Part shown: positions 34,728-64,000 of the stretch, piece after piece
Numbering within the stretch: the first letter of the stretch is position 1
Layout of the letters: every line of letters begins with the position of its first letter
DNA from: Nymphaea colorata
Lineage: Eukaryota; Streptophyta; Magnoliopsida; Nymphaeales; Nymphaeaceae
Reading direction: 5' to 3'
DNA: 64,000 nucleotides
NCBI RefSeq assembly: GCF_008831285.2
Contig: NC_045139.1
Span: 17,528,354-17,592,353, forward strand
Translations under genes and position numbers: made by a program
Notes under the pieces: model-generated
Told to the model about the DNA's origin: nothing
What the model saw: only the letters and a program-made list of their open reading frames with translations
The model's database searches: none

Positions 34728-34759
<32 letters not shown>

Positions 34760-35989
34760 CGTGTGTGTGTCTGTGTTTGTGTGTCCATACGTGAACGCAC
34801 ATGTAAGTCTTCTAATAATTTTATATATCCTCTATGTTAGCCACAAGCATATCTTGGCTTGACCTTTAACTGGGGAGCATTATTGGGTTGGGCTGCTGTT
34901 AAAGGTAGCCTAGATCCTGCTGTTGTCTTGCCGCTGTATGCTTCTGGTGTATGCTGGACACTAGTATATGATACTATATATGCTCATCAGGTATTTCCTC
35001 GTGTTTTAGAGCCTCTGACTCTGTAAATTTTATGCTTGTGCTTTTTTCCCCATGTCCGTTAGCTTTTTCTGCTTTGTTTATGACGTTTGAGGGTGTTAAA
35101 AAATCAGGATAAAGATGATGATCTAAAAGTTGGTGTAAAATCTACAGCCTTGAGATTTGGTGATCTAACAAAGCAATGGATTTCGGGGTTTGGAGTTGCC
35201 TCTATTAGTTGTCTTGCCCTTAGTGGATACAATGCACATCTTGGTATTTCAAAGATAGAATTTTCTTTTATTCTTGGGTTTCATACTTTTCTGAGCTTTC
35301 TCTCAATGTTCATTTGGTTGATATGTTGATACCTTACATTTTTCCCTGTTGAGTTGAGTTTTACTCCTGAAGGATGGCCATTCTATGCATTTCTGACGGC
35401 TGGCGCTGGACAACTAGTTTGGCAGATTTGGACCGTTGACTTGTCGAAACGTTTGGATTGCAACAAAATGTGAGTCTCATATAGTACTTACTTCAACTAT
35501 TTGCAGATATGAAGAAAGTACAAATTTTCCCAGTATCCAATCGTGTTACAAGATGTTGGGCTTTGTGGCTGCTTTGGCCAATCTAGATTATTGCATGATG
35601 CTATCTCCTTGAACTTTATGAGCCAGACAAACCTATGGTGTTTAGTCATCAATTGGCTAGACCCTCACCAGTACCTTCAGTGATATACACACACCTTTTG
35701 CTTATGCATGCATGTATTTCTGCAACAATATCTTCCAGAATATGCACATATGAGCCTAGATGGTGCATTTCTGTTGGAGGTTTTGCAGTACAACAGCATA
35801 TAAACAAGTTTTAGGTTGTTACAGGTTCCTTATTTTTCTATTTTCAAGAGCTGTTGTGATAAAAAAGGCAAAACTACATTTCACTGATCATTGGTGTTAT
35901 TTGCCAGGTTCATATCGAACAAGTGGTTTGGAGCCTTGATTTTTGGTGGCATTCTTTTTGGGAAGCTTGCATCGTGTGAGTCTTTGTAA
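31919..35989 (+). CDS. COQ2: 4-hydroxybenzoate polyprenyltransferase, mitochondrial (UbiA family)
   Basis: Eight exons join in frame: 31919-32367, 32495-32630, 33456-33577, 34648-34717, 34841-34990, 35108-35243, 35373-35469, 35908-35989, giving 413 residues. The enzyme attaches the polyprenyl tail to 4-hydroxybenzoate in ubiquinone synthesis, in the inner mitochondrial membrane. The first 30 residues ([20 protein letters not shown]) are Arg-rich and acid-free, like a mitochondrial presequence. The core begins at [14 protein letters not shown]. Prenyl-diphosphate/Mg2+ motif 1 is N185-D186-LL-D189-R-D191-I-D193. Motif 2 is in exon 6, D310-K-D312-D313-D314, after YDTIYAHQ. Several hydrophobic helices lie between. 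The C-terminus [13 protein letters not shown] is family-typical. This is the probable parental gene of the two shorter copies downstream, which share every splice position and phase. Confidence 0.94.
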
Positions 35990-44000: not shown

Positions 44001-46356
44001 ACTTGTTGAATTCTCCTAGTTGATGTCTTATAATGTTCTTGGAATGTACCATATGGGCCAACAATGAATATCGTCTTGGTTCAATGAAACCTTGCGTTCT
44101 TGATTACTTGAAAAGTGCAGAGGATTTCTTACATCTACCAAATGTTTTTCTTTTTGGTGAGGAAATCAACTGATGTTAGAATACGCACAATAGCACCTTT
44201 TTGTTGTGATTTTCTCGGTAGATGAAAACCTTGGAATATTATGAAGTTTTATGTTTTCTACGGTAACATGTTTATTTCAACCAGCAAAAATTGGTGCTGC
44301 TGTCAATGAAGATGAAGAAAATGAGAATGCATTGCATCATGAAAATGGGGTTTCAGCACATAAAGCTGAAAGAGAAGTGTTGCCACCACCTCCACCTCCA
44401 CGTAAGAACCATGCAAGTTCTGGAGATATACAAACTATAGTTGTTAGTAGAGTTGAAGAGGATGATATTTTCGTGGGGGATGGTGTCAATTATGCAATAC
44501 CTGGAAAAGACACTGGTGCTAGCCCTATTTCTGAGGACATGGAAGAGTCACCTCGTAATCGGGAAAGGCCATCCTACTTTTCTCAGCCCGAATATGGTCC
44601 TGTTCCGCCTGAGCCGATCCAAGATTGGCAACAAATGGTGAGTAGTAAGGCTGACTAATTCACTTGTCATTGTTCTTCTATGTCTATGATTTATTAATCT
44701 GAATATATTCCTGAGCAAATTGTCAAATCTGTTGCTCTAGTTAGTATATAAAGTGTAAGAAAATTTTGTACTGACCCACTTGCCTCATTCTAGGGGTTGA
44801 ATCTTTCTCATTTAATTAAGCTGCTCCATGCTTGTATACGTAATTTTGTTGCCTTTGGATTCTACTTCAGACTGCTCATGTTTTGGAACCTCATGTTTGT
44901 TCATTTTCAACCTTGCACTATCTTCATGAAACCTTGCTATATATTCTTATTCAGTATCTTTTCCTTTAGAAAAGATTTCTATTTATAGTTAAAGTATCAG
45001 TATCTATGAATTTTAGCTGTATCAGATTATTGATTTTTTCTCTCTTCATTTTTGTTGGTAGATATGTTGATGCTTCTAAATCTGCTCTCTCATGGACTTA
45101 CAATCTTAATTTGGCCTCATATTGCAGAATGGTTATGGTGCTGTCTCTGGGCCAGCACTAGCTTCTGGTTACCAGGGTGAGTGGCAAGATTATCAGTATG
45201 CAGAACAGATGGCTTATCCAGACCATTATGTGCAGCAGCCGTTGCCAAGCTATGATACACAGGCATCTGCAGTTGTAAATCAGGATCCTCAATTTATGAC
45301 ACAAGAGGAGAAAGATCGTGGCCTAGGTTCTGTCTTTAAACGTGATGACCGGAGGCTCCAGCAGCTAAGGGAAAAGGATGCTCGAGAGAAGGATCCAAAT
45401 TTCATATCAGAAAGCTATTCAGAATGCTATCCTGGTTATCAAGAGTATAACCATGAAATTGTTGACAGTGATGATGAAGCTGATTTAACTAAAATGGATA
45501 TGGGTGGAAGGGTAAGGATCTTCCTGTCACTATCATGTGCTTGTTTGCTGTTATAAAAACTTACGGCGTGAATATTTCACTCGTTATCAATTTCTTTTAG
45601 AAGAATTTGGTGTGTGCTTCTTCACAAGGGTTCAGTTTACCAGAGGGATCACATGTTTTGTTCCATTTCCTTAATTTTTGTGGTGTGAAGGTCGAGTTGC
45701 TTAGTATCTTGTCAATAATTGAAACCAACATGGTCTACCCTTGTAGCGCCTCTAAATCATGAGAAATTGCATGTCTTTTGCTTTTTCTGCAATGGCGGCT
45801 CTCCCTATGTAGTCGACTCCTTTGGAAGACTTGGAGTTTTGTTACCCTGTTGCATTATCCGAGGTTTTCTTTTTTGTCTCTTAAATTTCTTATTGCTTCT
45901 GTACATGGTTTTTCTTTTAGTGGGAGGGAACCAGGCCAGTCTCAAGTTTGCACATGGACTTGCTTGCTTCTGAAAGTTCGCTTTGTTTTACAAGCTGTAT
46001 TCGCTTCTGCTTAAATTTTTCCTCCTTTTATGGGTTCTGTCATGCGTGCCAATCACATTGTGGTTTCCCTGTTGCAGGCCAAAGGACGGCTTCACCGTTG
46101 GGATTTTGAGACGGAGGAAGAGTGGGCTACTTACAACGAGCAAAAGGAGGCAATGCCTAAAGCGGCTTTCCAGTTTGGGGTGAAGATGCAGGATGGTCGG
46201 AAGACCAGAAAGCAGAACAAAGAACAAAAGCTGACCAATGAGCTGCACAAGATTAACAAACTACTAGCAAAAAAGATGGCCGAAAAAGGTGGGACTTATG
46301 ATGATGGGGAGCAGCATTATGATGACGTACGAACGTCAAAAAAGCTTCGAATATGA
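38024..46356 (+). CDS. SMU2: Spliceosomal RED/IK family protein, SMU2 orthologue
   Basis: Eleven exons join in frame: 38024-38070, 41121-41261, 41361-41410, 41904-42018, 42503-42551, 42657-42746, 43184-43252, 43335-43467, 44285-44637, 45128-45511, 46078-46356, giving 569 residues. RED/SMU2 partners SMU1 in the spliceosomal B complex and affects splice-site choice. The RED N-terminal domain is seen as YRDRAKERRE, SFHAVAPPG (50-58) and GDVEHTHLVKGLDYALLHK. LRLGSSGKVLKKKKKEK follows, then a linker with a PPPPPP run and DDIFVGDGVNYAIPGKD, then EEKDRGLGSVFKRDD, SESYSECYPGYQEY and the RED C-terminal block LHRWDFETEEEW with FQFGVKMQDGRKTRKQN. The start MSSKKKNYKEKL fits the family. Intron 1 is 3.05 kb and repeat-rich. 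A polyadenylation-like AATAAA lies at 46616-46621. Confidence 0.95.
40455..40538. repeat. AT/GT microsatellite
   Basis: Alternating TA and TG dinucleotides with few interruptions, inside SMU2 intron 1. Confidence 0.9.
40701..40872. repeat. GA-rich low-complexity tract
   Basis: Purine-rich run of GAGA and AAAG words in SMU2 intron 1. The apparent Ser/Leu/Phe-rich ORFs on the opposite strand are artefacts of this composition. Confidence 0.85.
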
Positions 46357-49300
46357 ATTGGAAACGGAGCTGGTTGTCTGTTACTATGTGTATCACAGTC
46401 GTATTCTTGTTTAATCTGCATTCCACCTTTGATCCTTCAGTCTATAGGCGAAGATGGCATTTCTATTGTGCTCACTGCTCACGCATCCTCTTCATTGTTT
46501 ATCTGAAGATGCCAGTTATTTTAATAACTGAAGCAGGTCTGTCATCTGCCATTCAATTTTTGAAAGTCGTGCATCTAATCGACCTATTTCCTAATTTATC
46601 TGAAAAATAGTTTGGAATAAAAAAAATAGTATTTGAAGAAAAGCTCGAACTGATCAAAGTTGATGGACTTGACAACAATAGGTGGCCTTCAGGCATCCCA
46701 ATACCGCATTCAACCATCGGAGGGTTCAAAGTCCAACTCAGTTGGATGTGGGAAACGTTACGTGATGCTTATTTTACCTTTACAAGTCCAACTCAAACCC
46801 AATTGGGAGGCCTGATCCGTCTACCAGTGATCCGACTCCCTCGGATGGTCCTTCCGTCAACCGGCTCTCAGTTTTTAGACTCGCGCCTGACACTCGAAGC
46901 CCAATCGCCCATGCCATTGCTCCACGCTTCACAGCTGCTCTGAATCCTCTGATTATTTGCGGCTCCTCAATTGCACGACGGACGTCGGTGGCCGGATGCC
47001 AGGATCAACAGTCGCCCCTGGAGATTGATCTCAGTCTCAGACTGCTTAGTTCCCGTCAACCCTTTCTAGAACTGTCGATGCCGGATTCCGGGAGTCACCT
47101 GCTTCTAAATCTCTCTCTCTCTCTCAATTGGTAGTCCTAGCCCTAGCAATCTGAGGGTTTTGTACTTTGTTGCTTCTAATAGTTGTAGAAGCTTAGGTGT
47201 AATGCTACTATTGTGTTGGTTTAATTACAGAAATGAGAAAACCTGCATCACCCCATGACATGAGATGCAAGTTATTGCTTGCCAAATCTGTTTACAGAAT
47301 ACAGCTTTGATGTTTATATTTTTTTTGGCAGAACGCCGGACGCCATTTACAAAAGGGCCGGGCCGGAACCCCATCAACATGAAGGGGCTTGGTACCTGGT
47401 CCATTTAAAAGCGGGCTGGCCCGGTAGGTGGCCCGGTTTATAGTTTAGAATAAATTGATAAAGTACCGCTTACCTGTCTCGTGGAAGTGGAATTTTCAAG
47501 GGAGTTAGGTGTTACACAAGTCCAGAATTTGAGTGACCCCCAAAAAAAAAAAAATGATTGTACCTGCCCATTCAATACAATTTCCTTTTTTTGCAAGTTT
47601 TTTTCTTTCCAATAATATAATTGATTTGAGACTCAACCCAAACCCCAACTGGGTTGACACTGCCAAAGTAGCTCGCCTCAAAAGGACCGGCACCAACAAT
47701 CTGTACAGAGGAAACTGAACTCCCCAAGTCTTCTACTTCCCATTGGGTCAAGCAAGAAGAATTGGGTTCCAGGGCAGCTTTGGCAAGACAGTGGCTTGCA
47801 TCTGTCCATCAGTCTCAATCGCCGCCTTATTTGAAGTATTAATGGCCGCAACGATAAAGAAAGCCTTCTCTCCAACCATGGCAGTGAAAGTCCTTCGCGC
47901 GTCGCTAAGAGTTCGAAAGTTCGTCAATTTTCTTTGTCTAGAAATGTTTCCGATGAATACAATTCGTCAAACGACTCGGACTCGTGCTTCAAGGTTCAAA
48001 CTGCATTTATTGCGTATATTCACAACAAAGCAAGATTCGAATAGGAACTATCAAATTTCCCACTAAAACTTGTTGGAACAATACTGGAAATAACGTCAAA
48101 CCATATGTGGCAAACGGCGAAGATGAAGTGACAGCCATGAAACAGTAAGGGTCGCCTTAATGGAGGTGGTGGGGCGAGCAGTCTAGCCAAGGTGATGAAC
48201 CGGTGGTTGCCTCGCCATAGCGGTATTGGTGGCGCTAATGGCAGCAGTGATTGATGGTGGCGGAGCCATGGTGGTAAAGTGGTGGCGGCGAGGAGGGCAG
48301 TAGCAAACATGCAGGTAGACGCAGTGAGGGTGAGACTATGGTGCAGGTAGCTCCTGGTGGTTGCAAGTTAAAAACATGGTGGCTGCATTGTTACGAATGC
48401 GCCGCGCAAGTATGCAGTGAAAGAAGGGGTTGCTTTTATAATTTAAAAACAAGTATGTCTTTTTTTAATCATTTCATTTTTTTATTTTCATTTTCATTTT
48501 TATCGTATCAAAAAATTTGTTTTTTTTTTTTGTGAAAAAATACTTTTGTCATTAACTGTGCATGAAATTTTGGAAGGTGGTAGCGGCAACAACAGGTGGA
48601 CTGAAATATTCATATTAAATTAAAACAAGAATAGCTTCTTTTATATATTTATACGTACTTTTGAACATAATCATAAGACATTAAAACGGTGTATGGAAAA
48701 TGCCACCAAAAATTGTTAAGATGGTGGAAGGGGAGGTCCTCCTCGGGTCCGATAGTCGATCCTTCCTCTTAATGTTGCAAGAATTCATGTCGATTTTAAA
48801 GAGTTGAAGAAAAACTCTGCTCGAAAGCTACCCAAGAGCTTGCGACGAATGAAAGTAAGCTGATCATTTATGGTCTTAAAAGATTAAGGACAGTTTCAAG
48901 CAGCGGCAGGATGACACTTCAAAACACATAAAGCATGCCTTATGAAGAAAAGGGGTTGGGTTGAGGCTTGGACAGTTTCAGTTTTTTTTTTAAATGAATA
49001 CACCAATTGAGAGACGGAATTTGACCCAGATTTAAGCTTTGTCCGGCCGGAGCCTTCATCGGGAAAGGGACCCGATGTCCCCCTTCCTCCTGGTAATGGT
49101 GACGCTTGTTCGGTCCCTGCAACTTAGACAAACTGGACGTAAGGGCCAGCCCGTCCGGCCGATGAGCCCAGTCCGGCCCATTTAAAGTTTTAAAATAATT
49201 TTTTAATTATAAAATAATTTTTAAATATAAATATATTGATTAATAATAAATATACATTATTAAAACAAAAAAATTAAAAAAAAATATTTTTTAAATTTAA

Positions 49301-50169
49301 ATGGGGTAAACGGTTTGGTCCGGTCCGACCCGACGGTGGCCTGGCCCAGGCCCGGGCCCAATCAGACCGACCCGACGGCGGCCCGGCCCACACCCACCCC
49401 CTTCACTGGACGCCATTGTTTTTATAACTCATTAACTACATGGGCCACTCCAATGACGGAGCCCAAGAGAAAGATCAACAAAGACCGACTGACTCACATA
49501 CTTTTACAATTTTTTTCAAAGGAAACATTAATTATATCTTTGACAAGCATAATATTTTTTTTTTTATAATTTTCTAGAATTGGAAGAAAAACAAGTCTTC
49601 TACCTTCGTCGTCAAACTGATGCACCGTTCATCTCAGCTGAGTCAAAGTCATCTCCATCCATGAGTCAATGAGAGAGGGAAATACATTAATTGAATCTCA
49701 CGTTAATTGAAAGGCGAAGGCAAGTGTGGGGCATTGTGTGGGCAACTGCCCATGAAGACCAACAAAATATTGCTTATACTCATATTGATATTTCGGGATA
49801 TTTTTTTTTTTCGTTTACATCTTGGTGCCTCTTTCAAAATTTTATAACTAGTGACACTTATCCAGAATTTTCTAGCTCTGCCTTTACATTAATAATTAAA
49901 AGCTTCAACTGTGAATTCATCAAAAGGGAACCCAGCTTATTTATTAGGGCGGCAAGGCAAGAGCCATGTTTTTGCTTTTTAAAATCTGGTTTTTGTTCAG
50001 ACAACAAAGATTAGTTTATATTTCAAACACATGGTCCCTTATTATCAGCCATAACATATAACCTACTTCAGCCAAGGGCTACCAGCTAAGACTTTCAACC
50101 CAAGCAGCATAACGGAAATATGAAAAAATTGAAAGGGGGTATTCTGAAACCTTATATCTTAGGCATGCT
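46357..50169. other. Intergenic SMU2 to first UbiA copy: duplicated flank and repeats
   Basis: No gene is supportable. After the SMU2 3' flank (AATAAA at 46616) there is a GC-rich, promoter/leader-like segment with a CT tract at about 46680-47160. A GGCC-rich block lies at 47330-47445. Segments 48070-48370 and 48870-49130 match, with many changes, 60035-60240 and 60640-60850 downstream of the second copy, so they belong to the duplicated unit. A GGCC/A+T repeat is at 49140-49405. About 49600-50169 matches the region upstream of the second copy. Confidence 0.55.
49140..49405. repeat. Dispersed repeat, GGCC-rich ends with A+T core (copy 2)
   Basis: GTCCGGCCGATGAGCCC and GTCCGGCCC on the left, GGCCTGGCCCAGGCCCGGGC and CGGCCCGGCCC on the right, separated by about 120 bp of almost pure A/T (49187-49305). 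It is the clearest member of the family. Confidence 0.55.
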
Positions 50170-50184: not shown

Positions 50185-50283
50185 ATGCAGGAGCCCTCCA
50201 ACTCAAACTTGCTCTCTCCTCTTGTAGGTGTTGCACCATCTGTTCTAATCAAGCATGGCATCAGCAGCATCCCTCTTGCTTGA
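50185..50283 (+). promoter_or_regulatory. Overlapping uORF in the leader of UbiA copy A
   Basis: An upstream ATG opens a 32-codon frame that runs past the main start at 50255 and stops at TGA 50281-50283, in the +1 frame. Copy B has the equivalent uORF (55989-56102), same relative frame. A uORF overlapping the main start usually lowers translation unless it is skipped by leaky scanning or removed by leader splicing. Confidence 0.55.
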
Positions 50284-51308
50284 ACAGACTGCAGCTTCTG
50301 TTAGCTCTTGGGAGAAGAGAGTTGCAACTAGCCCACCAAAGGCGGCCGCCACGTTTCGGACCAAGTTGGCGAGCTCAAGCACGTGGCTCGATCACTTGGT
50401 TCCCGCAACATTGCGACCATATGCATACTTGGCTCGTATCGACAAGCCCGTAGGAACTTGGCTTGTGGCTTGGCCCCAAATGTGGTATTATGCTTTTTAT
50501 GTCAATTTTGCGAGCTTGTGTGTGTGTATGTGTGTGTATTATCACCAAATGGGGTTAGAGATATGCATTTATGCTGTGTGTGTGCGCTTGTGTGTGTGTG
50601 TGGGTGTATGTGTGTGTGCTTTAGTGTGTGTATGTGTGTGTGAATTATCACCAAATGGGGTTAGGGATATACGTTTATGCTGTGAGTTTGGTGCAGGGGA
50701 ATTGCTTTGGCTGCAACGCCTGGTAGGCTTCCGGATCTGAGCTTGCTGTGGGTGCTGGCTTGGGCTTCATTCTTCGCGAGAGGGGCGGGCTGCACTATCA
50801 ATGACATATTGGATCGAGATTTTGATGCCAAGGTATAATTTCCCCCTCGCTTGACTTGTCTCTCGTTCATGTTCATGCAGAATTTGTTACTATGAGAGAT
50901 TAAAAAAGAGAAAACATTTCCTTGAGAATTAATTCATGTATCCATTTGTAACGTCTCGAAAATCAAGTCGTCCCTTGTGAATAAATGAAATAATAGGCGG
51001 TAGTTTGTCCGATATTTGAGTTCATTTTCTTCATCTTTGTAACAGCTTGTGTGACATTTAATTTTAACGGACATGATATTTGCTGGCTCAAGGTTATTAT
51101 CGTGTTTCTCAAAAAAGTAACTATTTTAAAGCTCCGAATTTAACCTTCTCGTATGGCATCGCAGGTACAACGTACAAAATCAAGGCCAATCGCATGTGGA
51201 CTCCTCACGCCCTTCGAGGCAACTCTATTTCTTGTCATTCAACTCTTGCTTTACATTGGTGCTCTCTCACTAACAAACACATTTTGGTATCTCTCTCTCT
51301 CTCTCTCA

Positions 51309-51362
<54 letters not shown>

Positions 51363-52666
51363 CGAAATCACGCTGTTGATAGGAAACCTGATAGTTCAGG
51401 TATATGTAACTTATTGTGCTTCAAGATCAGACCTTTTCATTACGTGCAAAACCCAAAAATGAAGGCTTCTTAAATGCTGAAAATGTTTATATATCACTAT
51501 GAAAGAGAAATTTGATCAACTCAAGTGGACAAAAACTATTGATAATGAGGAACTTCAGCACATTATAACATATGGTATATATAAGTTTCAAAAAAATCTC
51601 TTCAACCTCACAAAAAATTTAGGAAGATTATTGTAGGCTCATATGCTTTTCTTCAGCAAATATGCGGCTTGATTCTTTGGAATAACCTCCCTGTTTTTTG
51701 GCAGTTTGGGTGTTGGAATTGCAACGCTGTTGCTGGTTTTCTCTTACCCATTGATGAAAAGATTGACATATTGGGTATGCTTTGCTTTTGATATAGCTTT
51801 TATCAGTAGCTTCTTTTGCTCAACTACAGTTTGTTAACCATGGCAAACTTGATTGCAGCCTCAAGCATACCTAGGCATGACCATGAACTGTGGAGTCTTA
51901 CTGGGTTGGTCAGCAGTTAAAGGGAGCTTAACTCTTGCTGATATCTTCCCATTATACTCTTCTGGTGTATTCTGGACCATTATATATGACACTATATATG
52001 CACATCAGGTACATGAGATTTTTATACTTCTTTGTTACTGCAATCATAAATCCACATACTTTTGAAGGTTTCATGAATTCAAACTTGGAAATACCAAGCA
52101 GTTTCACTGTCTGAATCGATTAAGAGTTCAGAGTCCAACCGATCCCTGTTGGAATCGGTTCTACCTTAACAACTGTAGGTCTTAGTAGAGCCCAAATGAG
52201 ACTAGGAGAGAACTAATCAGGTTGTATCTTCTGTGCGAACCATTTACTGTTTTACATGCATCATGGGGATAACAAGCCAACCTTTTTTTAGAGCACCCAG
52301 TAAATTTCAAAACTATAGTAAGATTATACTGGGGACATGGATGACCATGGTAACTATCTCTGGTGGGCATGTGAGTGCAAAACTTAAGTACTTTCTTCCA
52401 TGGTTAATAATAATTTGGAAGGGAAAGGGGAGGCTTCGGCCTCACTCGGATGGTGGATTAGCCTTTCACACACCCGATCATAATTTGGAGATTTGATAAC
52501 TGCAAGTCCAATTGTATCAGGATAAGAAAGACGACGTGAAAGCTGGTGTAAAGTCCACAGCCTTAAGGTTTGGAGAATCAACAAAGAGTTGGATAAGTGG
52601 ATTTGGAGTTGCCTCCTTTACTTTCTTCCTCCTCACTGGATACACGGCTAACCTTGGTACGTGATG

Positions 52667-52704
<38 letters not shown>

Positions 52705-53038
52705 CTTAACAAACGATCATCGTTCTTCTTAAGCAGGTTGGCCATACTATGCATTCTTGGCAGCTTCAGCTACCCAACTAGTGTGGCAGATTTGGACCCT
52801 TGACATATCAAGACCTGAAGAATGCGAAAAAAAGTCAGTACTACTGATAACTATAATGTCTTAATCGTTATGCAGATTATGTGATTTCTATAGTTTGTAG
52901 AGAATAGAGAATGGGTAGTGAAAGAAAATAAGATGTTTCTTGTTTGTTTTCTTGAATACGCATTTCAGGTTTGAATCAAACAAATACTTTGGAGCTCTCG
53001 TCTTCTTCGGGATTTTGACCGGAAAACTCGTGCAGTGA
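50255..53038 (+). CDS. COQ2-like UbiA aromatic prenyltransferase, copy A
   Basis: Eight exons: 50255-50484, 50697-50832, 51165-51286, 51705-51774, 51859-52008, 52521-52656, 52737-52833, 52969-53038, giving 336 residues. Exons 2-6 and 7 have exactly the COQ2 lengths and phases (136, 122, 70, 150, 136, 97 nt). Motif 1 is N112-D113-IL-D116-R-D118-F-D120; motif 2 is D237-K-K-D240-D241; the N-terminal [14 protein letters not shown] is intact. In exon 5, 36 of 50 residues match COQ2. The N-terminus is about 70 residues shorter, Ser/Ala-rich and contains Glu, unlike an Arg-rich presequence. COQ2-derived enzymes with changed location and specificity are known (p-hydroxybenzoate geranyltransferases of Boraginaceae). 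Activity on a 4-hydroxybenzoate-type acceptor is plausible; donor length and compartment are unknown. Introns 3 and 6 start with CT microsatellites. It looks functional. Confidence 0.88.
51289..51362. repeat. CT/AT compound microsatellite at the 5' end of intron 3, copy A
   Basis: The (CT)n run starts within the donor context itself (TTTTG|GTATCTCTCT) and passes into (AT)n. The same compound repeat starts at the same intron position in copy B but not in COQ2. Confidence 0.9.
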
Positions 53039-53480
53039 AAGGCATATGTGACCGTGGCCATGACTCCTCGTGCCACATTTAAGATGGAAAAGTGGAGTAA
53101 TAAGATCGCTTCTGTCAGGTTCATCCCAAAGTCTTCTGACTGTTGAAGTGAGACCCAAGTGTGTGATTTAGTAGAATAACCATGTACTTGCACTGTACAA
53201 TGTTATCATTGGTTGGTAGTAAAATATATTTTACTATCCCATATATATGATGTACGTCCTGGGAAAATATATTTTGTGTTGACTATATATGATGAATGGT
53301 TTATGGTATCTTATACGAATGCACCTTGGGTACAGGACGAGAAATATGTGCTGTTGTCTCTCATCTCATTGTGATGACAGGCAATATTTTTAAAGTATGG
53401 CCAACAAACAAGCCTAAAGAACTGAGTTTCACGTATTCGATCTTGGCTTCCCTCCTATGGCACGATGAGCTGATATCAAG

Positions 53481-53557
<77 letters not shown>

Positions 53558-54362
53558 AGAGAGAGAGAGAGAGAGATGTAAAAAACTATCTCAACCTTTT
53601 TCTTTTTTTAGGACATGATGGTTTATACACTGCTATTAAATGACCCAATCGTGCTACTAAAAGATCTTAAGACCAGGACTATAGATCAAGTCTCAACCGC
53701 ACCATCTTACTCCTCACGCGCTTTCTCATGGTGTTGCTCCTGTACCAGTATACAACACATGCAAAAAAGGAAGGTGGGCCAGAAGGGGCCATGGCCTCTC
53801 CTCAAATTTCCAAAAAGAAAAATTTGTATATAATTAAAAAAATTCATTTAGCCTATGAAAAAGTTATATTTTAGCCCCTGTCAAAATTCTAAAACTATAC
53901 TTTGGAACTCTAATGAAAAATATCTAATTCCACATTATGGGACTTCGTCTGTGGTTCTGTTCTCTCATTATATGGTCTAATCCTTAATCTCTCCCACTCA
54001 TTCAAATGAGAAATGGAATCACATAGTAATGCAGGTAATATTAGAAACTAATAATGGAGTAACCTGCCGTAATGTTTTGAATTTTTTGCACTTCTCTGGT
54101 TAGGAAGGTAAAAAAAAAAGTAGTGAAATTATGTAATGGAATTTCACAGTTCAAGCTGCATTTTCTAGTCAAATTGGATCTGCATAAATTGTGTTAGGGC
54201 CGACTTGAGAAATCGCAAATCACTCTGTTTCTGACCAAAGCCTCCAGAACTTGATGCACTTCAGTTCAGCCGTTGTTTATTGGAATATCACCAAGAACTT
54301 GATTACCGTCATGACATTCGTAGAATTTGTGCAATTCAAAAGCTAATTTATAGATATGAACG

Positions 54363-54393
<31 letters not shown>

Positions 54394-55972
54394 GGTTTAT
54401 GAGTGTGGAAGAAATGTCAGCAAGGCAAAAGTCTTTTTTTCCTATCACGTGGTTAAGGACTGCATTGATGTCTGGTGTAAAGGGCACATAGTCATGCAAT
54501 TTACACTAGAGATGCGAACGCCTGTGCCACTTTTCTTTACAATTTTCTTTGACCAAATATATTACTTTGACATTGTGTCTGTCTTTTTGCACAATTTTTT
54601 AGTGTGCAGGAGAAAACTTCACGACTCTAACAAAAGCAAGTCTTTCTTTTCCACCCCGAGGTCCAGGGCTGCACTGGGGTCGGGGTTGGAGCTTGCAGTG
54701 CACATCTACTAGTGCATTGCTTTCCTCCAATTTGCACAAGGATTGCGGGGGCCCATGACGCTTACCAGCCACTGACCATCTTTTGTTTCTTGGAACTTTT
54801 GCTGATCACCGAGTAGGTGCATGAGAATTGCAAGCGCCCCATCCCCATCTTACTGTATGTTAGTCGAGAGGGACTGACTTTCAACATCAAAGAAATGTGA
54901 GTTTTGCTCCTTTGAGCTTCTAATCTTTTCCATGGTTGAAGACTTTTTCTTCGAAGCAGCTGAGTCCTAGATCGCAAAAATTCTTATGAACTGTCAACTG
55001 AATCCATTAACTGTTGTGCTAATCTTTTAGGTCCCTAAGCGTAAGGCGACCAAAAGCTTGGGATTTCGTTTCCTTTGAAAACATGGAAGAAAAAACAGCA
55101 TTTCGGCCGTCGTCATCAAACTGACGCAATGGTCAGGTCGTATACCATCGATCATCTCAGCTGAGTCGAGTCTTCCGCCGCTATGAATCAATGAGAAAGG
55201 AAAAGCCATTCTTTGAATCTCACGTTAATACGGGTGTGGAGGCACGGGCATCAGGTGGAAAAAATATTCATTTTCATATTGGTAATTCGTGGTAAGTTTT
55301 TTATAAGTTTACATATTGGTGCTTTCTAAAAATTTAAAATTTCACAAGTAGTGCCCTAGAGTTTTCTGGCTCTGCCCTTGCATTAATAATAAAAACTTTA
55401 GAATGTGCCTTTTTGCCGAAGATGCCTATTTTTTTTCACATGTTTTAGCATTTTTCTCTACCTTGAAGGCTTGAACTCTATCCACAAACCGGCTATGCGT
55501 TTGGAGGACACCTTAAGAAATGAAATTTTGTAAAATTCAGGATTTTTTACTAGCTTCAGGGACCAAGTTTATGCATTTGGGTGACACGATAAGAACCTTA
55601 TTTTCATTTTTTAAAGCCTGGTTTTTGTTTAAATAACAAAAATGATGAGTTAATATAGTAAATATATTGATATCATTAAAATATGAAGTTTTCCATGAAA
55701 AACCAGGGTGGAGAGGGGGGGGGCAAGGTTTTTTTGGCCCTTTGAAAATGAGTTTTGTCAGTATGCCTAAAACCAAGTTGTGGAGAAAATGTCAAACCAA
55801 ATAACCCAAAATATCCATATCATGAGGCATGTCTCTTGTTATGGGCCATAACATTTGACTTGCTTCAGTCAAACGGCCCCATACAGGATAACGCTTTCAA
55901 TGCAAGCAGCATAAGGGAAATATGAAAAGAATTAAAGGGGGTATAGTGAAACCTTATAGTTTTAGATATCAC
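53039..55972. other. Intergenic between UbiA copies A and B
   Basis: No gene is seen. The first 430 bp match the downstream flank of copy B (for example the GAACTGAGTTTCAC to CTATGGCAC block near 53420-53465 versus 59975-60020). A long AT/AG microsatellite follows at 53485-53577. Segment 54035-54305 matches 62095-62360 upstream of copy C. The segment from about 55050 matches upstream sequence of copies A and C. Together these define the duplicated unit. Confidence 0.6.
53485..53577. repeat. AT/AG compound microsatellite
   Basis: (AT)n followed by (AG)n, with one AAGG interruption, downstream of copy A. It lies where similarity to the downstream flank of copy B stops. Confidence 0.9.
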
Positions 55973-55980
55973 TATAAAAG
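55973..55980 (+). promoter_or_regulatory. TATA box of UbiA copy B
   Basis: TATAAAAG lies 104 bp upstream of the start codon and is embedded in the same promoter block as in copy A. Retention of promoter and leader argues that copy B can be transcribed. Confidence 0.65.
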
Positions 55981-55988
55981 AAAACACC

Positions 55989-56102
55989 ATGCACGAAGAC
56001 TCTCAACTCAAACTCTCTGCCTTGCCTCATCTTGTAGTAGATGTTGCTTGCAGTATCTGTTATGTTATGATCAAGCATGGCATCAGCGTCCTTCTTGATT
56101 GA
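55989..56102 (+). promoter_or_regulatory. Overlapping uORF in the leader of UbiA copy B
   Basis: A 37-codon frame starts at ATG 55989, crosses the main start at 56077 and stops at TGA 56100-56102. It corresponds in position and relative frame to the uORF of copy A, though the encoded peptide differs by substitutions and indels. Confidence 0.55.
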
Positions 56103-56731
56103 ACAGAAGAGCCTTGCAACTAGCAAACCCACCAAGCCAGGCGCATGGCCCCATCACTTCATTCCTGCAGCATTGCGAACATATGCTCGCTTGGCTCGTG
56201 TCCACAGGACTGTAAGATTTTGGCTTGTGGCTTGGCCGCAAATGTGGTATTATGCTCGATTGCACGCCCGTGTGTGTGTGTATGTATGTATGTATGTGTG
56301 TGAGAGATTGGTAGCTACCAGATTCTTATTTTAAGTGTTAAACCCATAATTTGGACGTCCCGAGATCGATGGTTGAGAGTGAAAGGAGATCGAGCATTTT
56401 ACTCATCTAATATTAATTAACAAAATTTTCTTTTTATTTTCATGTCAGTCCAAGATAATTCTTTATGGGTTTAGCACTTAAGGGTCCAATACTTACCAAT
56501 TTGTATATGTGTGTAGGCACCAAGCTCTAATGTGTGAGGCTTGCTAGGAATCCTCTTATCTGTCGATTATAGAAACCTGGTAGGGATTTGATTGACAGAA
56601 AAGGAGAGAGACTGGTTTTTGAAGATCTCTCTTTTCTCTCTCCATTGCTATTGTCAAGTTGTTCTTTCAAAAATCCAAAAAACCCTTCAAAAGAGAGAAG
56701 GAGTTTTGTTTAAGGAAACTCGTGTTTCATG

Positions 56732-56775
<44 letters not shown>

Positions 56776-57606
56776 TTTCAAGGGTACTTCAAAGACTTCA
56801 AAAAATGGCTTAACTTCTACGTTTACAATTAGTTAATCTTCATTGTCTAACCTCTTTGGAATCGGTGGCCTAAATGATTCCTATCAAAGTTTGGTTTATG
56901 GTAGCTCCTTGTTTATATATATATATATATATGTATATCTTCATTTGTAATTTTTTTTGTCCGCATGTTATGGCAAAATGGGGTAGGATTATGAGTTTCT
57001 GATGTGAGTTTGGTGCAGGGGAATTGCTTTGGCTGCGCCGCCTGGTAAGCTTCCGGATCTGAGCCTGATGTGGGTGCTCGCTTGGGCTTCGTTCTTCGCA
57101 AAAGGGTTGGGCTGCACCATCAATGACATATTGGATCGGGATTTTGATTCCAAGGTATAATTTCTCCTTCTCTTAACTTGCCTTTCGTTTATGTGCACGC
57201 TGAATTTGTTACTACCAGACATTAAAACGGAGAAAATATTTCTTTGAGAATTAATTCATGTATCCATTTGTAACTTCTCGACAAACAAGTAGTCCCTTGT
57301 AAATAAATGAAATAATATAAGGGCGGTCTTTTGCCGATATTTGACTACATTTTCTTCATCTTAGTAACAGCTTGTGTCATTTAATTTTACGGGCAAGATA
57401 TTTGCTGTCTCAAGGTTATTATCGTGTTTCTCCAAATAACTATTTTAAATCCCCAAATTTAACCTTCTCGTATGGCACAACAGGTACAACGGACAAAATC
57501 AAGGCCAATCGCAAGTGGACTTCTCACGCCTTTCGAGGCAGCTCTATTTCTTGTCTTTCAACTCTTACTTTACATTCGTGCTCTCTCACTAACAAACACA
57601 TTTTGG

Positions 57607-57693
<87 letters not shown>

Positions 57694-59220
57694 TTCAAAA
57701 ACTCTCCTCAACTACAAATTATATATTTTTTCCCTCCTCACAAAACTTTTGGGAAGATTATTGTAAGACTCATATGCTTTTCTTCAGCAAATATGCGTTT
57801 GATTCTCTGGATTAACTTCCCCTTTTTCCACAGTTTGGGTGTTGGAATGGCAGCACTGTTACTGGTTTTCTCTTACCCATTGATGAAGAGAATGACATAT
57901 TGGGTACGCTTTGCTTCTGATATAGTTTCTTTGAATAACTTCTTTTGCTCAATTACAGTTACTTGATCATGGAAAACATAATTGCAGCCTCAAGCATATC
58001 TGGGCTTGACCATGAACTGTGGAGTCTTAATGGGTTGGTCAGCGGTTAAAGGGAGCTTAAGCCTTGTTGACATCTTCCCATTATACACTGCTGGCGTATT
58101 TTGGACTATCATATATGACACTATATATGCACATCAGGTACATTACATTTTTCTGTTTTTTTTTTTTTTGTCACTGCAATCCAGTCAACATGTTTTTGAA
58201 GGTTACATGAATTTGATACAACGGTTGGAAGAGTGTGATAATGAAAAAAAATCACTGAAAGTACTGCAGCCGTATGATAATAAACCTGAGATTGGATCCA
58301 TTTAGGTAGATCCAGTGAAGAAAACCGCATCTACATACTATCTAATTAAACTTGGAAATGCCATGCAGTTTCCTGACTTATTCCATTAAGAGTTCCGAAT
58401 CCTACCGATCCGTGTTGAATTCGGCTTTGTCAATACAACTTTAGGTCTTAGTAGAGCCTGAGTTAGATTAGGAGAGAATTAATCAGGTTTGTATCCTCTT
58501 AAAGTTGGACCTGAACTTGACGGGTACTCGGGTTATGTGATCTCCCAGGTCTCAAAGCAGCTTTGGACTCTCAAAGCAGCTTTGGACTCTGAGGGCAGGG
58601 GGACATGGGAGGGGGGGGGGCATAGGCCATGGCCCCACCCTGGCAAATGAAAAAAAAAAATTACATTAAAAAAATATAATTTTTTAAGTTTGCAATATAT
58701 TTTTTAGAGTTGAATTCAATTTGGCCCTACCCCAGATCCAGAGGTTGGACTGTCGGCCCGTCCCTAAAAAAAATCATGACTTCGCTCCTAGACATGGGTC
58801 AAGTTTTCACCTCTCAGTACGCCTCAACAATGGATTCGATCTGTGTTCGAACCATTTACTTACTTACATGCATCCTGGGGATGACAAGCCAACATTTTTT
58901 TTTGAGGGCCCAGTAAATTTGTAAACTACCTTAAGATTTTACTGGGGACATGGATGACCATGGTAACTACATCTGTTGGGGAATGGGGAATGATAGCGTG
59001 TACTTTTCTCTTGGTTGATCATAATTTGGAGAGATTTGGTAACTGCCAGTGGTCTGTCCGTCCAATTGTATCAGGATAAGAATGACGAAGTGAAAGCTGG
59101 TGTAAAGCCCACAGCCTTAAGGTTTGGAGAATCAACAAAGAGTTGGATAAGTGGATTTGGAGTTGCCTCCTTTACTTTCTTCCTCCTCACTGGATACACA
59201 GCTAGCTTTGGTACGCGATG

Positions 59221-59254
<34 letters not shown>

Positions 59255-59593
59255 CCTATTTTTATCAAACAATCGTCCTTCTTCTTGAGCAGGTTGGCCA
59301 TACTATGCATTTTTGGCAGCTTCAGCTGCCCAACTATTGTGGCAGATTTGGACCCTTGACATATCAAGACCTCAAGACTGCGAAAAAAAGTCAGTACTGC
59401 TGATAACTATAATCTATTAATCATTGTTCAGATAATGTGTCTTTTATAGTTGTAGAGAATAGAGAACAGGTAATGAAAGAAAATAAGATGTTCCTTGTTT
59501 GTTTTCTTGAATACCCGTGTCAGGTTTCAATCAAACAAGTACTTTGGAGCTCTCGTCTTCCTCGGGATTTTGATCGCGAAACTCATGCAGTGA
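56077..59593 (+). CDS. COQ2-like UbiA aromatic prenyltransferase, copy B
   Basis: Eight exons: 56077-56246, 57019-57154, 57484-57605, 57834-57903, 57988-58137, 59075-59210, 59293-59389, 59524-59593, giving 316 residues with all splice sites and phases intact. Exon 5 matches copy A at 44 of 50 residues. Motif 1 is unchanged (N92-D93-IL-D96-R-D98-F-D100). Motif 2 is D217-K-N-D220-E221, a D-to-E change at the last position. The striking difference is in exon 1: the conserved block RIDKPVGTW of copy A reads RVHRTVRFW here, losing the Asp, Pro and Gly that the family keeps. The N-terminus is 20 residues shorter than in copy A. The open frame argues for a gene; the exon-1 changes argue for altered function or early decay. 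No mitochondrial-type Arg-rich presequence is seen. Confidence 0.82.
56738..56771. repeat. CT microsatellite in intron 1 of copy B
   Basis: Uninterrupted (CT)n. Intron 1 of copy B is 772 nt against 212 nt in copy A, so it has gained or kept extra sequence. Confidence 0.85.
57608..57692. repeat. CT/AT/GT compound microsatellite at the 5' end of intron 3, copy B
   Basis: Same position relative to the donor as in copy A: the (CT)n run begins at donor base +4, then (AT)n, then (GT)n. Confidence 0.9.
58550..58587. repeat. 19-bp tandem duplication in intron 5 of copy B
   Basis: TCTCAAAGCAGCTTTGGAC occurs twice in direct succession. Intron 5 is 937 nt here and 512 nt in copy A. Confidence 0.85.
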
Positions 59594-61439
59594 AAGGCAT
59601 ACGTGACCGTGCCCATGACTCCTCGTGCAACATTTATGATGGAAAAGTGGAGGAATAAGATCGCTTCTCTCGGGTTCATCCGAAAGTCTTCCGCCTGTTG
59701 AAGTGAGACCCAAGTGTGGGGTTTAATAGAATAAGCATGTATTTGCATTATACAATGTTTAACATCTCCGCTTGATAGTAAAACTATGCTCCAGAGCGAT
59801 TAGAAGAAACAAATTTTTCTTGAGAAAATATACTTTCTGTTGACTGTATATGATGAACAGTTATGATGTCCTGTATGAAAACACCTTTTTTACATGGCGG
59901 GCAATGCGTGCTGTTGTCTCTCGTTGTTAAGACAGGCAGTATGTTTTAAGTAGGGCCACTAAACAAAACCAAAGAACTGAGTTTCACATATTCAATCTTG
60001 GCTTCCCTCCTATGGCACTTGAACTGGTTTTGAACAATACTGGAATTAACGTCAAACTGTGTGTGGCAAATGGTGAAGATAGAATGATAACTATGAAAGT
60101 GTTGGTGGCGCCAATGGCAGCAGTGACGATGGCGGTGCTATGGTGGTAAAGTGGTTGGCGGCGAAGAGGGTAGTAGCAAATATAGAGGTAGTCGAAGTGA
60201 GAGTGAGACTACGGTGCAGGTAGCTCCTGGTGATTGAAAGTTGAATATATTTCATGAATATGTTCCAAAGTAGTTATAAATACATGAAAGAAGTTATTCA
60301 ATTGTTGGCAGTAAGTGGCAACGGCGACAAGGGGTGGAAAATGAGATATTCATGTTAAATTAAAACTAGAACATAGCTTGTTTTATGTATTTACATCTAC
60401 TTTGGAACATATTCATGAAGCAATAGCACTGTGACTGCATATGAAAAATATCACCAAAAATTGATAAAATAGTCGATCATTCCCCTCAATTTGACAAGCA
60501 TTTATGTCTATTCCAAAGAGTTAAAGAACAACTCTGCTCAAAAGTTACTAAGAAGTAATTTGTTGTGTTGATTCCACAGAATGAATCAGTAGGTGATGAT
60601 TTGAATCATTGATCTGGGATTCTAGTTGCCCGAGAGTTAAGGACGAATGAAAGTAAGTTGATTGTTTATGGTTTTAAAAGATTAAGGGCAGTCTCTGTTT
60701 TTTTTTTCCAAAGAATGAACCAACTGGGCGACGGAATTTGTCCCAGGTTTAAGCTTATTCCGGCCGCCCTCTTCATCGTGAAAGGGAGCCGACGTCCTTC
60801 TTCCATCCTGGTAATGCTGAGGCTTCCGCTGTCTCTGGTGCTCTGCAAGTAAGGCAATTTGGACGCCGCGTTGTTTCTATAACTAGCTGGGGTCAATCCA
60901 ATGGCCCCAGCTATATATACTGCTACAATTTTTAAAGCAAACATTAATTATATTTTTCATAAACATAAAAAAGGCAGCAGAAAATGAGAGATGTGTACAC
61001 CCCTGCATCTCCAAACGAGTTTTTGAATTAATTTGCCACCGATTCTATTGTCAATGGGCTGGTGCGTGCCAGTTTTCACTGATAATAAATCCAATATAAA
61101 TCTAATACCCGACCGAACCGCTTTATAAATGACAATGTTTCATTAAGAAATCGGGACAGATTCATAGTTAAAAATGACACCAAATCGGATTTCAATTTGG
61201 ATTTAGGTGAATTGTTATCATATCTGAATATGTGAACATCCAAAAAAAAAAAAAAAAAAAGCGTAACTGATTCATATCTGAATATTAGTCTGAAGGCAAA
61301 GCTGATCCACACTCTCCCAAGGCTTCAAATATAAGGTCTCTAGAATTCCAATGGAAAAGCTAAGTTCCTCATCTCCCTGTGGTAAGGAAGGAAGCTCAAC
61401 TCTAAGCCTGCAGCTCAGCTTAATTAGGAGTTCAGCTTA

Positions 61440-61620
61440 ATTAGGAGTTGGGCTCTGGCTGGGCCGCAGCTCCTACCTGCCGCTCAGGCCGGCCCAGTTA
61501 AAATTAAAATTTGTATATTTTAAATATAAAATAATATATAAATAAAATTAATCATAATAAATTAATAAAAATAATATTAAAAATATCTTATCAAACTGAA
61601 TTGGATTTAGTGGGGCCTAC
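61440..61620. repeat. Dispersed repeat, GGCC-rich ends with A+T core (copy 3)
   Basis: Left end contains GGCTGGGCCGCAGC and CAGGCCGGCCCAG. About 90 bp of A/T (61500-61590) follow, then a right end with GTGGGGCC. No ORF. Confidence 0.45.
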
Positions 61621-61899
61621 AAGGGCCAAAGATATATATATATATATATATATAGAAAAAATAGATATGTAAATAACTTTATCATCGTTTTACCTTTTTT
61701 TTTTCTATTGACAATTGATAGAAAAAATTGAGAAAAATTGTGAATTGACACCGGTTAATAAAAATGTCACATCTTTTCTCTTTCTTTTTTCTCTTAACCG
61801 CCAACGTCAAAAAAACTCGAAGTCTGTCCACCATCCAAAAGGCCTAGCATATATATAAAAGGGCACTATTACTATTCTCATGGTATCAGCATACAACAC

Positions 61900-62045
61900 T
61901 GGGCTGCCCCTATTTTAAGTCTGGCTCAAGCTTGGACCTCATTTTTGCAACTGATTTATTTTTTTAAAATAATATATATATATAATTATATTAAAAATAT
62001 TTTTTTAAAAAAAAATTGTATCCAGGCCCATCCCGACCCCCACCC
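61900..62045. repeat. Dispersed repeat, GC-rich ends with A+T core (copy 4)
   Basis: CACTGGGCTGCCCC on the left and CCAGGCCCATCCCGACCCCC on the right surround an A/T core (about 61955-62015). Adjacent to copy 3 but separate from it. Confidence 0.4.
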
Positions 62046-63766
62046 TTAAAGAGGAGGCTGGCAAGGGTTATGTCTCACTTCACATAGTAATATGAGTAAC
62101 ATTAGAAACTAATAACGGTGTAATCTTTGGTAGTGTTTTGATTTCTTTTGTACTTCTCTTGTTAAGAAGATTAAAAAAAAAAAGTGGTGAAAACATATGT
62201 AACGGAATTTTACAGTTCAAGCTGCAGTTTCTAGGTTTGCATAAAGTGTGTTGGGGCGGACTTATAAACCTCAAATCACTCTGTTTTTTACCAATGCCTT
62301 TAGAACTTGATGCACTTCTAGTTCTGCCGTTGTTTCTTGGAACCGCACCAAGAAATTGATCACCATCTTTAGTTGTTCACCGCAAACATCCCATCTTACT
62401 ACTGTAGTGGAGAGGGACTGAGTTTAAACATCCAAGGAATGAACGTTTTGCTTCCAATCTTTCCCATGGTTAATGACCTTTTCTTCGAAACCAATGACTC
62501 CTAGATCCCAAGATTTTAAGCTAATCTTTTAGGTCCAAAAGCGTAAGGCGACCAAAAGCTTGGGATTTCCTTTACTTTGAAAACATGGAACAAAGACACC
62601 TTTTCGGCCTTCGATCACCTCAGCTGTGTCAAGTCTTCCGCCGCTGCCGCCAAGAGTCGATGAGACGTGTGTGTGGGCATTTGCCCCACATGTTTTAGCA
62701 CTTTTCTTGAGATCTATCCACAACTTTGTTAGGAATTTTACTCAAGGTTGCGTCTGGCTTCAAAAATGGCGATTTGTGAAATTCATGTTTTTTGACTTGC
62801 TTATGTGTTTGGGTGACAACAAAAGAACCATACTTTCAGATATGGAGACAGAAATTTTGCATGAAAAAGGTCGAATTGAAGTTTCTAAATTTAAACCTCA
62901 AGGAATATCATTTTTCAAAAATTTTAGATAAGACAAATGATTTTTTTAAATTTTACATGCAAATTCTTTATTTTTTTTAGGTGGGGTGGTGGCTCTTGCG
63001 GGCCCTAACCTGTCTCTGCCCCTGCATACTTTCACTTTTTCAAATCTGGGTTTCTGTTTAGAGAACAAAAATGAGTTGGTATAGTAAATTTATTGATATT
63101 ATTAAAGGTTTTCTATGGAAAACGAGGGGAAGGAAGCAAGGCTATTGAGCGTCTTTCCAAAATGAGTTATGTCAAGGCGCCAAAACTGGCGTCCTAACAC
63201 TTTGAATTCTAAGGAGGTCAAAAATTCCATATCTTGAGGCAAAACCTATGTCACTTAGTGCGGGATGAAGGTGCCGGAGCGGCACATCTTAAAAAATTTA
63301 AGTGCGGTGAGGGTATTTTATTATTATTATTATTATTAATTTATTATATAGATAACAAAATAAGCATGTATATATTATTATTACAATTTAGTTATTAATA
63401 TATATATCATAATTAAATAATTGTATTGCATAGAAAAATATCATAACAACCTATATTATATAAGTATTTTAGTAATATGACATTTTAACTGGACTTAGAT
63501 GTAAGTCGAAGCCGCACCCACGTCTAGTGCACACCCCACTTGATGTGACTCAAGTGCAACAATAAAATAAACGAGTCCGGGTGATTTAGGGCAAAACTCA
63601 CCATAGAAAAGAATAAGGCGGCCATATGGTAAAAAAGAAGGAGAATGGTTTCCGTGTTCCTACATGCAGTTTAAATTTGATGGATACTTTTGGTAGGGCA
63701 TTTCTAACCCATACGACAAAAAGGGTATTTTGGACATTTTGAATTTATAATGTATGGTCCAGCTCT

Positions 63767-63805
<39 letters not shown>

Positions 63806-63880
63806 TTTGTAATTTTTGTTGTCCGAATGTTATGGCAAAATGGGGAAGGGTGATGCGTTTATGATGTGAGTTTGGTGCAG

Positions 63881-64000
63881 GGGAATTGCTTTGGCTGTGC
63901 CGCCTGGTAAGCTTCCGGATCTGAGCCTGGTGTCGGCGCTGGCTTGGGTTTCGTTCTTGGCGAGAGGGTTAGGCTGCGCCATCAATAACGTATTAGATCG
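63881..64000 (+). pseudogene. UbiA copy C, exon-1-less fragment running off the right edge
   Basis: After the same acceptor context as copies A and B (TTTGGTGCAG) the exon-2 sequence reads [16 protein letters not shown] and continues open to the window end. Motif 1, which is [10 protein letters not shown] in the other copies, reads CAINNVLDR: the first Asp is Asn and the preceding Thr is Ala. No counterpart of exon 1 or of the TATA-box block is found in the 1.3 kb upstream, although family intron-1 sequence is present directly before the exon. I therefore read it as a truncated, probably inactive copy. The remaining exons, if any, are beyond the window. Confidence 0.7.

Follow-up and report, generated by a model that had tools for sequence, protein, structure and literature searches.

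A tandem array of COQ2-derived prenyltransferase genes near COQ2 in Nymphaea colorata, with one copy that may encode an enzyme of changed specificity

Why does Nymphaea colorata carry a row of COQ2-like genes a short distance downstream of COQ2, the gene for the 4-hydroxybenzoate polyprenyltransferase of ubiquinone synthesis, and what might these genes do? We examined a 64,000-nt stretch of the genome (the window; NC_045139.1, 17,528,354-17,592,353, forward strand), and coordinates given without a prefix are positions in this window. An earlier note on this DNA had described two copies, A and B, and a fragment, C, as a tandem expansion of COQ2. We found that copy A is an intact COQ2-derived UbiA gene, and we put at about even the chance that it encodes an active UbiA membrane aromatic prenyltransferase with altered specificity that serves a specialised product, with B and a further copy, D, diverging and doubtful, and C dead. 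The gene models in the window were as follows.

31919-35989, + strand: COQ2, 8 exons, 413 aa (exons 31919-32367, 32495-32630, 33456-33577, 34648-34717, 34841-34990, 35108-35243, 35373-35469, 35908-35989).
50255-53038, + strand: copy A, intact COQ2-derived UbiA gene, 8 exons, 336 aa (exons 50255-50484, 50697-50832, 51165-51286, 51705-51774, 51859-52008, 52521-52656, 52737-52833, 52969-53038).
56077-59593, + strand: copy B, uninterrupted frame in which conserved residues are altered, 8 exons, 316 aa (exons 56077-56246, 57019-57154, 57484-57605, 57834-57903, 57988-58137, 59075-59210, 59293-59389, 59524-59593).

UbiA motif 1 is found at 32592, 50794 and 57116, on the + strand in each case. In each of the three gene models all seven introns have GT-AG borders and the frame has no internal stop. 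The intron phases (2,0,2,0,0,1,2) and the lengths of exons 2-7 (136, 122, 70, 150, 136 and 97) are the same in COQ2, A and B, and the aligned residues agree with those of COQ2 at 60% in A and 56% in B. Counted from the COQ2 stop codon, A starts at +14.3 kb and exon 2 of C lies at +27.9 kb, both on the COQ2 strand. These measurements bear out the placement of tandem, same-orientation copies 14-28 kb past COQ2 and the sharing of its splice positions that had been proposed earlier. The eight-exon structure and closeness to COQ2, together with a match to the family TIGR01474 described below, likewise uphold a COQ2-type origin in which the introns were kept.

We next give the extent of the array, which continues beyond the window.

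63881-64000 in the window, continuing to 64016 outside it, + strand: exon 2 of copy C (tblastn and sequence).
About 64316-64385, past the window edge, + strand: exon 8 of copy C (tblastn and sequence).
67210-70288 in extended coordinates, past the window edge, + strand: copy D, full-length, 8 exons, frame intact.
60016-60968, + strand: 3' flank of the B unit, partner of 48061-49552.
48061-49552, + strand: stretch upstream of A that resembles the B-unit 3' flank.

Copy C is a pseudogene of which only exons 2 and 8 are left. In the sequence read past the window edge, exon 1 and exons 3-7 are not recognisable, intron 2 sequence is joined straight to intron 7 sequence near 64173-64181, and motif 1 reads GCAINNVLD where GCTINDxxD is expected (NNVLD, an Asp-to-Asn change). 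The expected site of its exon 1 (63128-63753) is AT-rich, with no match to A or B. The array listed earlier as A, B and fragment C is thus real and larger, with a fourth, full copy in D, but C is only a pseudogene fragment. The flanking repeat (68-85% identity in pieces) was found at no third place in the genome by a search that skips very common words. Because the B-unit flank recurs upstream of A and nowhere else found, 48061-49552 is probably what remains of a copy that once preceded A, and besides A, B, C and D the array probably had a fifth unit. A dispersed transposon is not favoured as the source of this repeat, for which that genome-wide search found only the two places. Searching the 408-Mb genome (407.8 Mb) with A gave 33 matches at E values up to 10, all at the COQ2/A/B locus; this search scores only the best candidates, here 29 of 29, and the absence of any other COQ2-like gene in the genome is stated for A as the query. 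The Pfam UbiA profile gave additional matches on contigs C12, C5 and C1, none hit by A, which are presumably other UbiA enzymes.

Microsatellites occur at several splice donors of these genes. (CT)n tracts lie at or just past the donors of COQ2 exon 1 (32367-32420) and exon 4 (34717-34760), and further (CT)n tracts lie at the exon 3 donors of A (51286-51355), B (57605-57690) and D, those of A and B being followed by (AT)n. Changes in their length could affect the splicing of COQ2, A, B and D.

All full-length copies belong to the UbiA family by profile score. COQ2, A and B reached 205.2, 194.9 and 185.2 bits against Pfam UbiA (PF01040; cut-off 34.2 bits), and COQ2, A, B and D reached 356.8, 330.9, 308.2 and 291.8 bits against TIGR01474 (4-hydroxybenzoate octaprenyltransferase), all above its equivalog cut-off of 275.45 bits. 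As a reference for conservation we used 78 alphaproteobacterial UbiA proteins (two of 80 were excluded as short) and E. coli UbiA, which define 72 near-invariant core columns; COQ2 keeps 70 of these, A 64, B 57 and D 53. Some ubiA genes of alphaproteobacterial type came from bins that carry the names Stygiobacter, Deltaproteobacteria, Anaerolineae and Marinimicrobia, which may reflect binning errors.

Copy A keeps all metal- and diphosphate-binding residues. Its two Asp motifs are complete, and it retains the YP..KR stretch as well as GVKSTAL, which conforms to GX(K/Y)STAL. Its residues near the diphosphate that should be basic are all basic, with one Lys for Arg, as in E. coli. In B the DRPIG loop carries His, Thr and Arg (HRTVRFW), the last Asp of motif 2 is Glu (DKNDE) and the Ser of STAL is Pro (GVKPTAL). 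In D the Asn of the motif 1 NDxxD is Asp (IDDIFD), the STAL site reads GVKSVAL, the Tyr of YDTxY is His, His-Gln is replaced by Gln-Leu, and the loop is altered in the same manner as in B. The Asp motifs and diphosphate residues are therefore intact in COQ2 and A and altered in B, D and C; the earlier statement that the Asp motifs are kept, and fully so in A, holds in that A is complete, with DKNDE standing in motif 2 of B. Alanine at N68, D72, R22 or K146 of AfUbiA is reported to have abolished binding of geranyl diphosphate (GPP; PMC4106721). The loss of GPP binding in these mutants casts doubt on motif 1 of D and on the altered loop that B and D have in common, although the changes in B and D are not to alanine and the basic residue of the loop is kept.

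Copies A, B and D share a second set of changes. All three depart at the positions of E. coli UbiA L28, F52, G55, M59, F150 and W152, which are 97-100% conserved in the 78 alphaproteobacterial proteins and all kept in E. coli UbiA, a protein only 33% identical to A in the core. COQ2 keeps five of the six, with Leu at M59, so that the family-invariant F52, G55, F150 and W152 are kept in COQ2 and changed in A, B and D; exon 2 of C also departs at F52, G55 and M59. In a profile alignment to the AfUbiA structure 4tq3, the first Asp motif closes transmembrane helix 2 (TM2) and F150 and W152 fall in TM5, and by this alignment five of the six shared departures are probably in TM2 and TM5. In AfUbiA the isoprenyl tail is reported to be lined by TM2, 4 and 5 (PMC4106721). 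Judged from conservation and alignment, these pocket departures are the best single argument for a changed specificity.

The copies differ in the constraint that they have experienced. For A and B, the ratio of nonsynonymous to synonymous substitution rates (dN/dS, omega) over exons 2-8 was 0.49, below 1 (p = 0.009 by likelihood; 0.38 by counting, 95% range 0.24-0.65). For A-D (0.88-0.96) and B-D it was not different from 1, and the value near 1 for D may mix constraint with rapid change. Counting sites at which two copies agree and the third differs gave 15 for A, 30 for B and 43 for D, which makes A the slowest. With COQ2 as the reference and D left out, there were 21 B-only and 5 A-only changes (p = 0.0025). 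The best topology of the copies joins B and D (log likelihood -3051.8 versus -3059.0 and -3064.1), although exon 1 and the remaining exons may differ in history.

None of A, B and D has a stop, a frameshift or a broken splice site, and exons 2-8 show no length change. Introns accumulated gaps at 0.093 (A-B) and 0.120 (A-D) per substitution; with 61 and 98 substitutions, roughly 6 and 12 gap openings would be expected in unconstrained exons 2-8, and 0 were seen. When neutral change was simulated, 10% of runs with 50 substitutions and 2.8% of those with 80 left no stop in the frame of A. Because B and D have no stops and no length changes in exons 2-8 despite the intron-based expectation, they probably encoded proteins through the greater part of their past.

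The founding duplication and the array are of different ages. The number of synonymous substitutions per synonymous site (dS) between COQ2 and A was 1.27-1.53 by counting and 1.42-1.74 by likelihood, whereas among A, B and D it was 0.16-0.21 by counting and 0.14-0.20 by likelihood (exons 2-8 and all codons), and their introns differ at the same level (0.148-0.161 differences per site). The founder duplication is therefore old and the array young. An expansion of the neighbouring COQ2, as proposed earlier, thus stands in that the copies are tandem and near COQ2, but they are not recent copies of it (dS 1.3-1.7, against 0.14-0.19 for A-B). The founder split would be older than the Nymphaealean genome duplication, for which a KS peak of about 0.9 is reported (PMC7015852), in a comparison of dS and KS values obtained by different methods. 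Along the array units, blastn identity between copies is 67-77% on the promoter side and in exon 1, apart from pieces of 34-46 bases at 85-97%, and 77-88% in the remainder, which runs from intron 1 into the 3' flank. Exon 1 also has the higher dS (0.24-0.29, versus 0.14-0.17 for exons 2-8), a contrast that is weak by itself with only 56-68 codons in exon 1. Such a mosaic is what one would expect if gene conversion or unequal crossing-over had acted on the downstream part and exon 1 were older.

The N-termini also differ. The part before the conserved core measures 126 aa in COQ2, 53 in A, 33 in B and 45 in D. The first 40 residues of COQ2 contain six Arg and one acidic residue, and in A, B and D the first acidic residue stands at position 9 or 10. 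Because A has this 53-aa N-terminus as against the 126-aa, Arg-rich one of COQ2, mitochondrial import of A is not evident from its sequence.

The surroundings of the array were surveyed by eye through open reading frames (ORFs), with a minimum length of 110 aa inside the window and of 105 aa at about -10 kb to 0 and 70.3-103.3 kb, a survey that could miss genes with short exons. One further gene lies between COQ2 and A.

41075-46356, + strand: RED/SMU2-like gene, limits approximate.

Its ORFs 45110-45556 and 46015-46356 match RED_C (PF07807), and its 5' limit is a guess because ORFs 44245-44658 and 41075-41434 match no family. Ten window ORFs were compared with Pfam and five matched (a DUS3L zinc finger, RRM twice and RED_C twice), which places an RRM protein and a DUS3-like gene upstream. 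Downstream ORFs, recognised by eye, resemble a BBR/BPC-type factor, a linker histone and a NAC factor. A metabolic cluster around the array was considered and set aside, with no candidate genes seen in the window or the flanks inspected.

From the gene structures, the array, the relative ages, the residue changes and the selection estimates, which are observed, we infer the activity, substrates, compartment and product of A as follows. An old COQ2 duplicate would have stayed near its parent, evolved faster than COQ2 and later been recopied in tandem to give A, B, C and D, and probably a fifth copy since lost. In A, the two Asp motifs would hold Mg2+ and the prenyl diphosphate, and the acceptor of the prenyl group would be 4-hydroxybenzoate or a phenol like it. 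Given the changes at several pocket residues that are invariant elsewhere, A probably uses a prenyl chain length or an acceptor other than that of COQ2, and would yield a specialised product rather than ubiquinone. That A is likely active is suggested by its intact exons, splice sites and frame, its TIGR01474 score, its preserved motifs, the A-B omega of 0.49 and its standing as the slowest copy.

Several observations weigh against this proposal. COQ2 itself departs at one of the six pocket positions, M59. Over all codons the A-B omega rises to 0.66 (p = 0.06). A dN/dS near 1, named beforehand as a sign against a specialised role, was found in comparisons with D and was not found for A-B over exons 2-8. 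A branch model with COQ2 as outgroup rejected one common omega (p = 1.2e-7), but on no terminal branch was omega different from 1 (0.19 for A, p = 0.24; 0.63 for B, p = 0.14; 1.02 for D, p = 0.94); the very long COQ2 branch polarises little, and we set this model aside as a branch-specific test. The low COQ2-A omega (0.18-0.22) may stem from COQ2 alone. We know of no prenylated phenolic from this plant, and neither inspection of ORFs by eye nor the comparison of 10 ORFs with Pfam revealed pathway genes or a biosynthetic cluster around the array. The array-wide specialised pathway of the earlier note therefore narrows to a plausible change of specificity and a fair hypothesis for A only, given that C is a fragment, that B and D have lost invariant residues, that A-D and B-D omegas are about 1 and that no pathway genes were seen.

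The same data can be read in other ways. The copies could be relaxed leftovers, redundant duplicates of COQ2 failing one by one, with C broken, D and B inactive and A the last to go. The loss of exons 1 and 3-7 from C, the D omega near 1, the Asn-to-Asp change in NDxxD of D and the altered DRPIG loop of B and D, seen beside the AfUbiA alanine mutants, all agree with this course, as does a reported parallel in Lithospermum, where a truncated tandem copy without NDXXD lies about 10 kb from LePGT1 (PMC7261806). We nevertheless consider it unlikely, since the reading frames of A, B and D are free of stops and shifts and their splice sites are all sound, neutral simulation rarely leaves a frame so intact, exons 2-8 have no gaps and their A-B omega is below 1. 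If A, and perhaps B, instead still made 3-polyprenyl-4-hydroxybenzoate and differed from COQ2 only in expression or compartment, as ubiquinone isozymes would, the scores of all four proteins above the TIGR01474 cut-off and the complete catalytic residues of A would be expected. The departure of A at six positions that even the distant E. coli enzyme keeps, and a short N-terminus in which mitochondrial import is not evident, make such isozymes improbable in our judgement.

An ancient second COQ2-like lineage would place the founder of A, B and D before the divergence of Arabidopsis, with relatives elsewhere sharing an older role. The COQ2-A dS above the Nymphaealean KS peak agrees with such an age, and a first tree, built with provisional AtPPT1 and human COQ2 sequences, grouped COQ2 with Arabidopsis (99/90) and left A and B outside. 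However, the approximately unbiased (AU) test left both COQ2+A+B (p = 0.075) and Arabidopsis+A+B (p = 0.18) standing, and a tree with A alone and nearer outgroups did not settle the node (AU p = 0.25). Site counts ran 6 to 4 for a pre-Arabidopsis founder with the human outgroup and 2 to 3 against it with a strict outgroup. The A branch measures about two to four times the COQ2 branch in the same trees, and long-branch pull is likely. Dating the founder before the Arabidopsis split was therefore set aside, and we regard this lineage as improbable.

For an active A of altered specificity, the closest precedent is found in shikonin synthesis. LePGT1 and LePGT2, the p-hydroxybenzoate geranyltransferases of Lithospermum erythrorhizon, like the copies described here, are UbiA enzymes from a duplicated COQ2-type gene, and LePGT and A alike keep NDXXD and GX(K/Y)STAL, where B has GVKPTAL and D has IDDIFD and GVKSVAL; a truncated tandem copy is likewise reported near LePGT1. 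The two LePGT genes and six relatives are reported to be single-exon genes inferred to be retroposed (PMC7261806), and LePGT does not lie beside COQ2, whereas A, B and D have eight exons and stand in tandem near COQ2. The precedent invoked in the earlier note thus holds for derivation from COQ2 by duplication but not for the route. Geranyltransferase activity is established for LePGT, and the array, known from its genes, is compared with it by description. AtPPT1 and LePPT1 are reported to have eight exons, and three multi-exon Lithospermum relatives are left unclassified (PMC7261806; PMC6603238). A thus has the exon number of AtPPT1 and shares with the window COQ2 its intron phases, TIGR01474 membership and catalytic residues; the copies are set apart by their short N-termini and by 8 (A), 15 (B) and 19 (D) departures at the 72 near-invariant columns, against 2 in COQ2. 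The three unclassified genes, Leryth_023194, 011510 and 006101, are also intron-bearing COQ2-like paralogues, and two of the three lack GX(K/Y)STAL, as do B and D; they have 10, 8 and 10 exons, and the available text mentions no tandem array beside COQ2. On what we consider the best reading, A would work like LePGT but would have arisen separately, with its introns kept.

Among the titles listed in literature searches that joined Nymphaea to a prenyltransferase or to compounds of the prenylated, geranylated or meroterpenoid kind, none dealt with this topic, which speaks weakly for absence, and no paper was found that uses the annotation name '4-hydroxybenzoate geranyltransferase 2-like'. The reports that we found of COQ2-derived specialised prenyltransferases concern Boraginaceae only. 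An Arnebia study counts 16 and 19 PGT genes in two members of that family (PMC13253341). We tentatively suggest, as a possibility somewhat short of probable, that an early-diverging angiosperm independently recruited a COQ2 duplicate to a meroterpenoid pathway by tandem duplication that kept the introns, re-cut the prenyl pocket at residues that had been fixed since bacteria, and then made further copies in which exon 1 and the active-site loop (HR..FW for DRPIGTW) are still diversifying. If this is true, COQ2, A, B and D would form a natural series in which a few pocket changes could be linked to the choice of donor or acceptor. The array would also represent a second, separate and intron-bearing origin of such enzymes, probably in an early-branching angiosperm, and would make the ubiquinone enzyme a repeated source of meroterpenoid chemistry.

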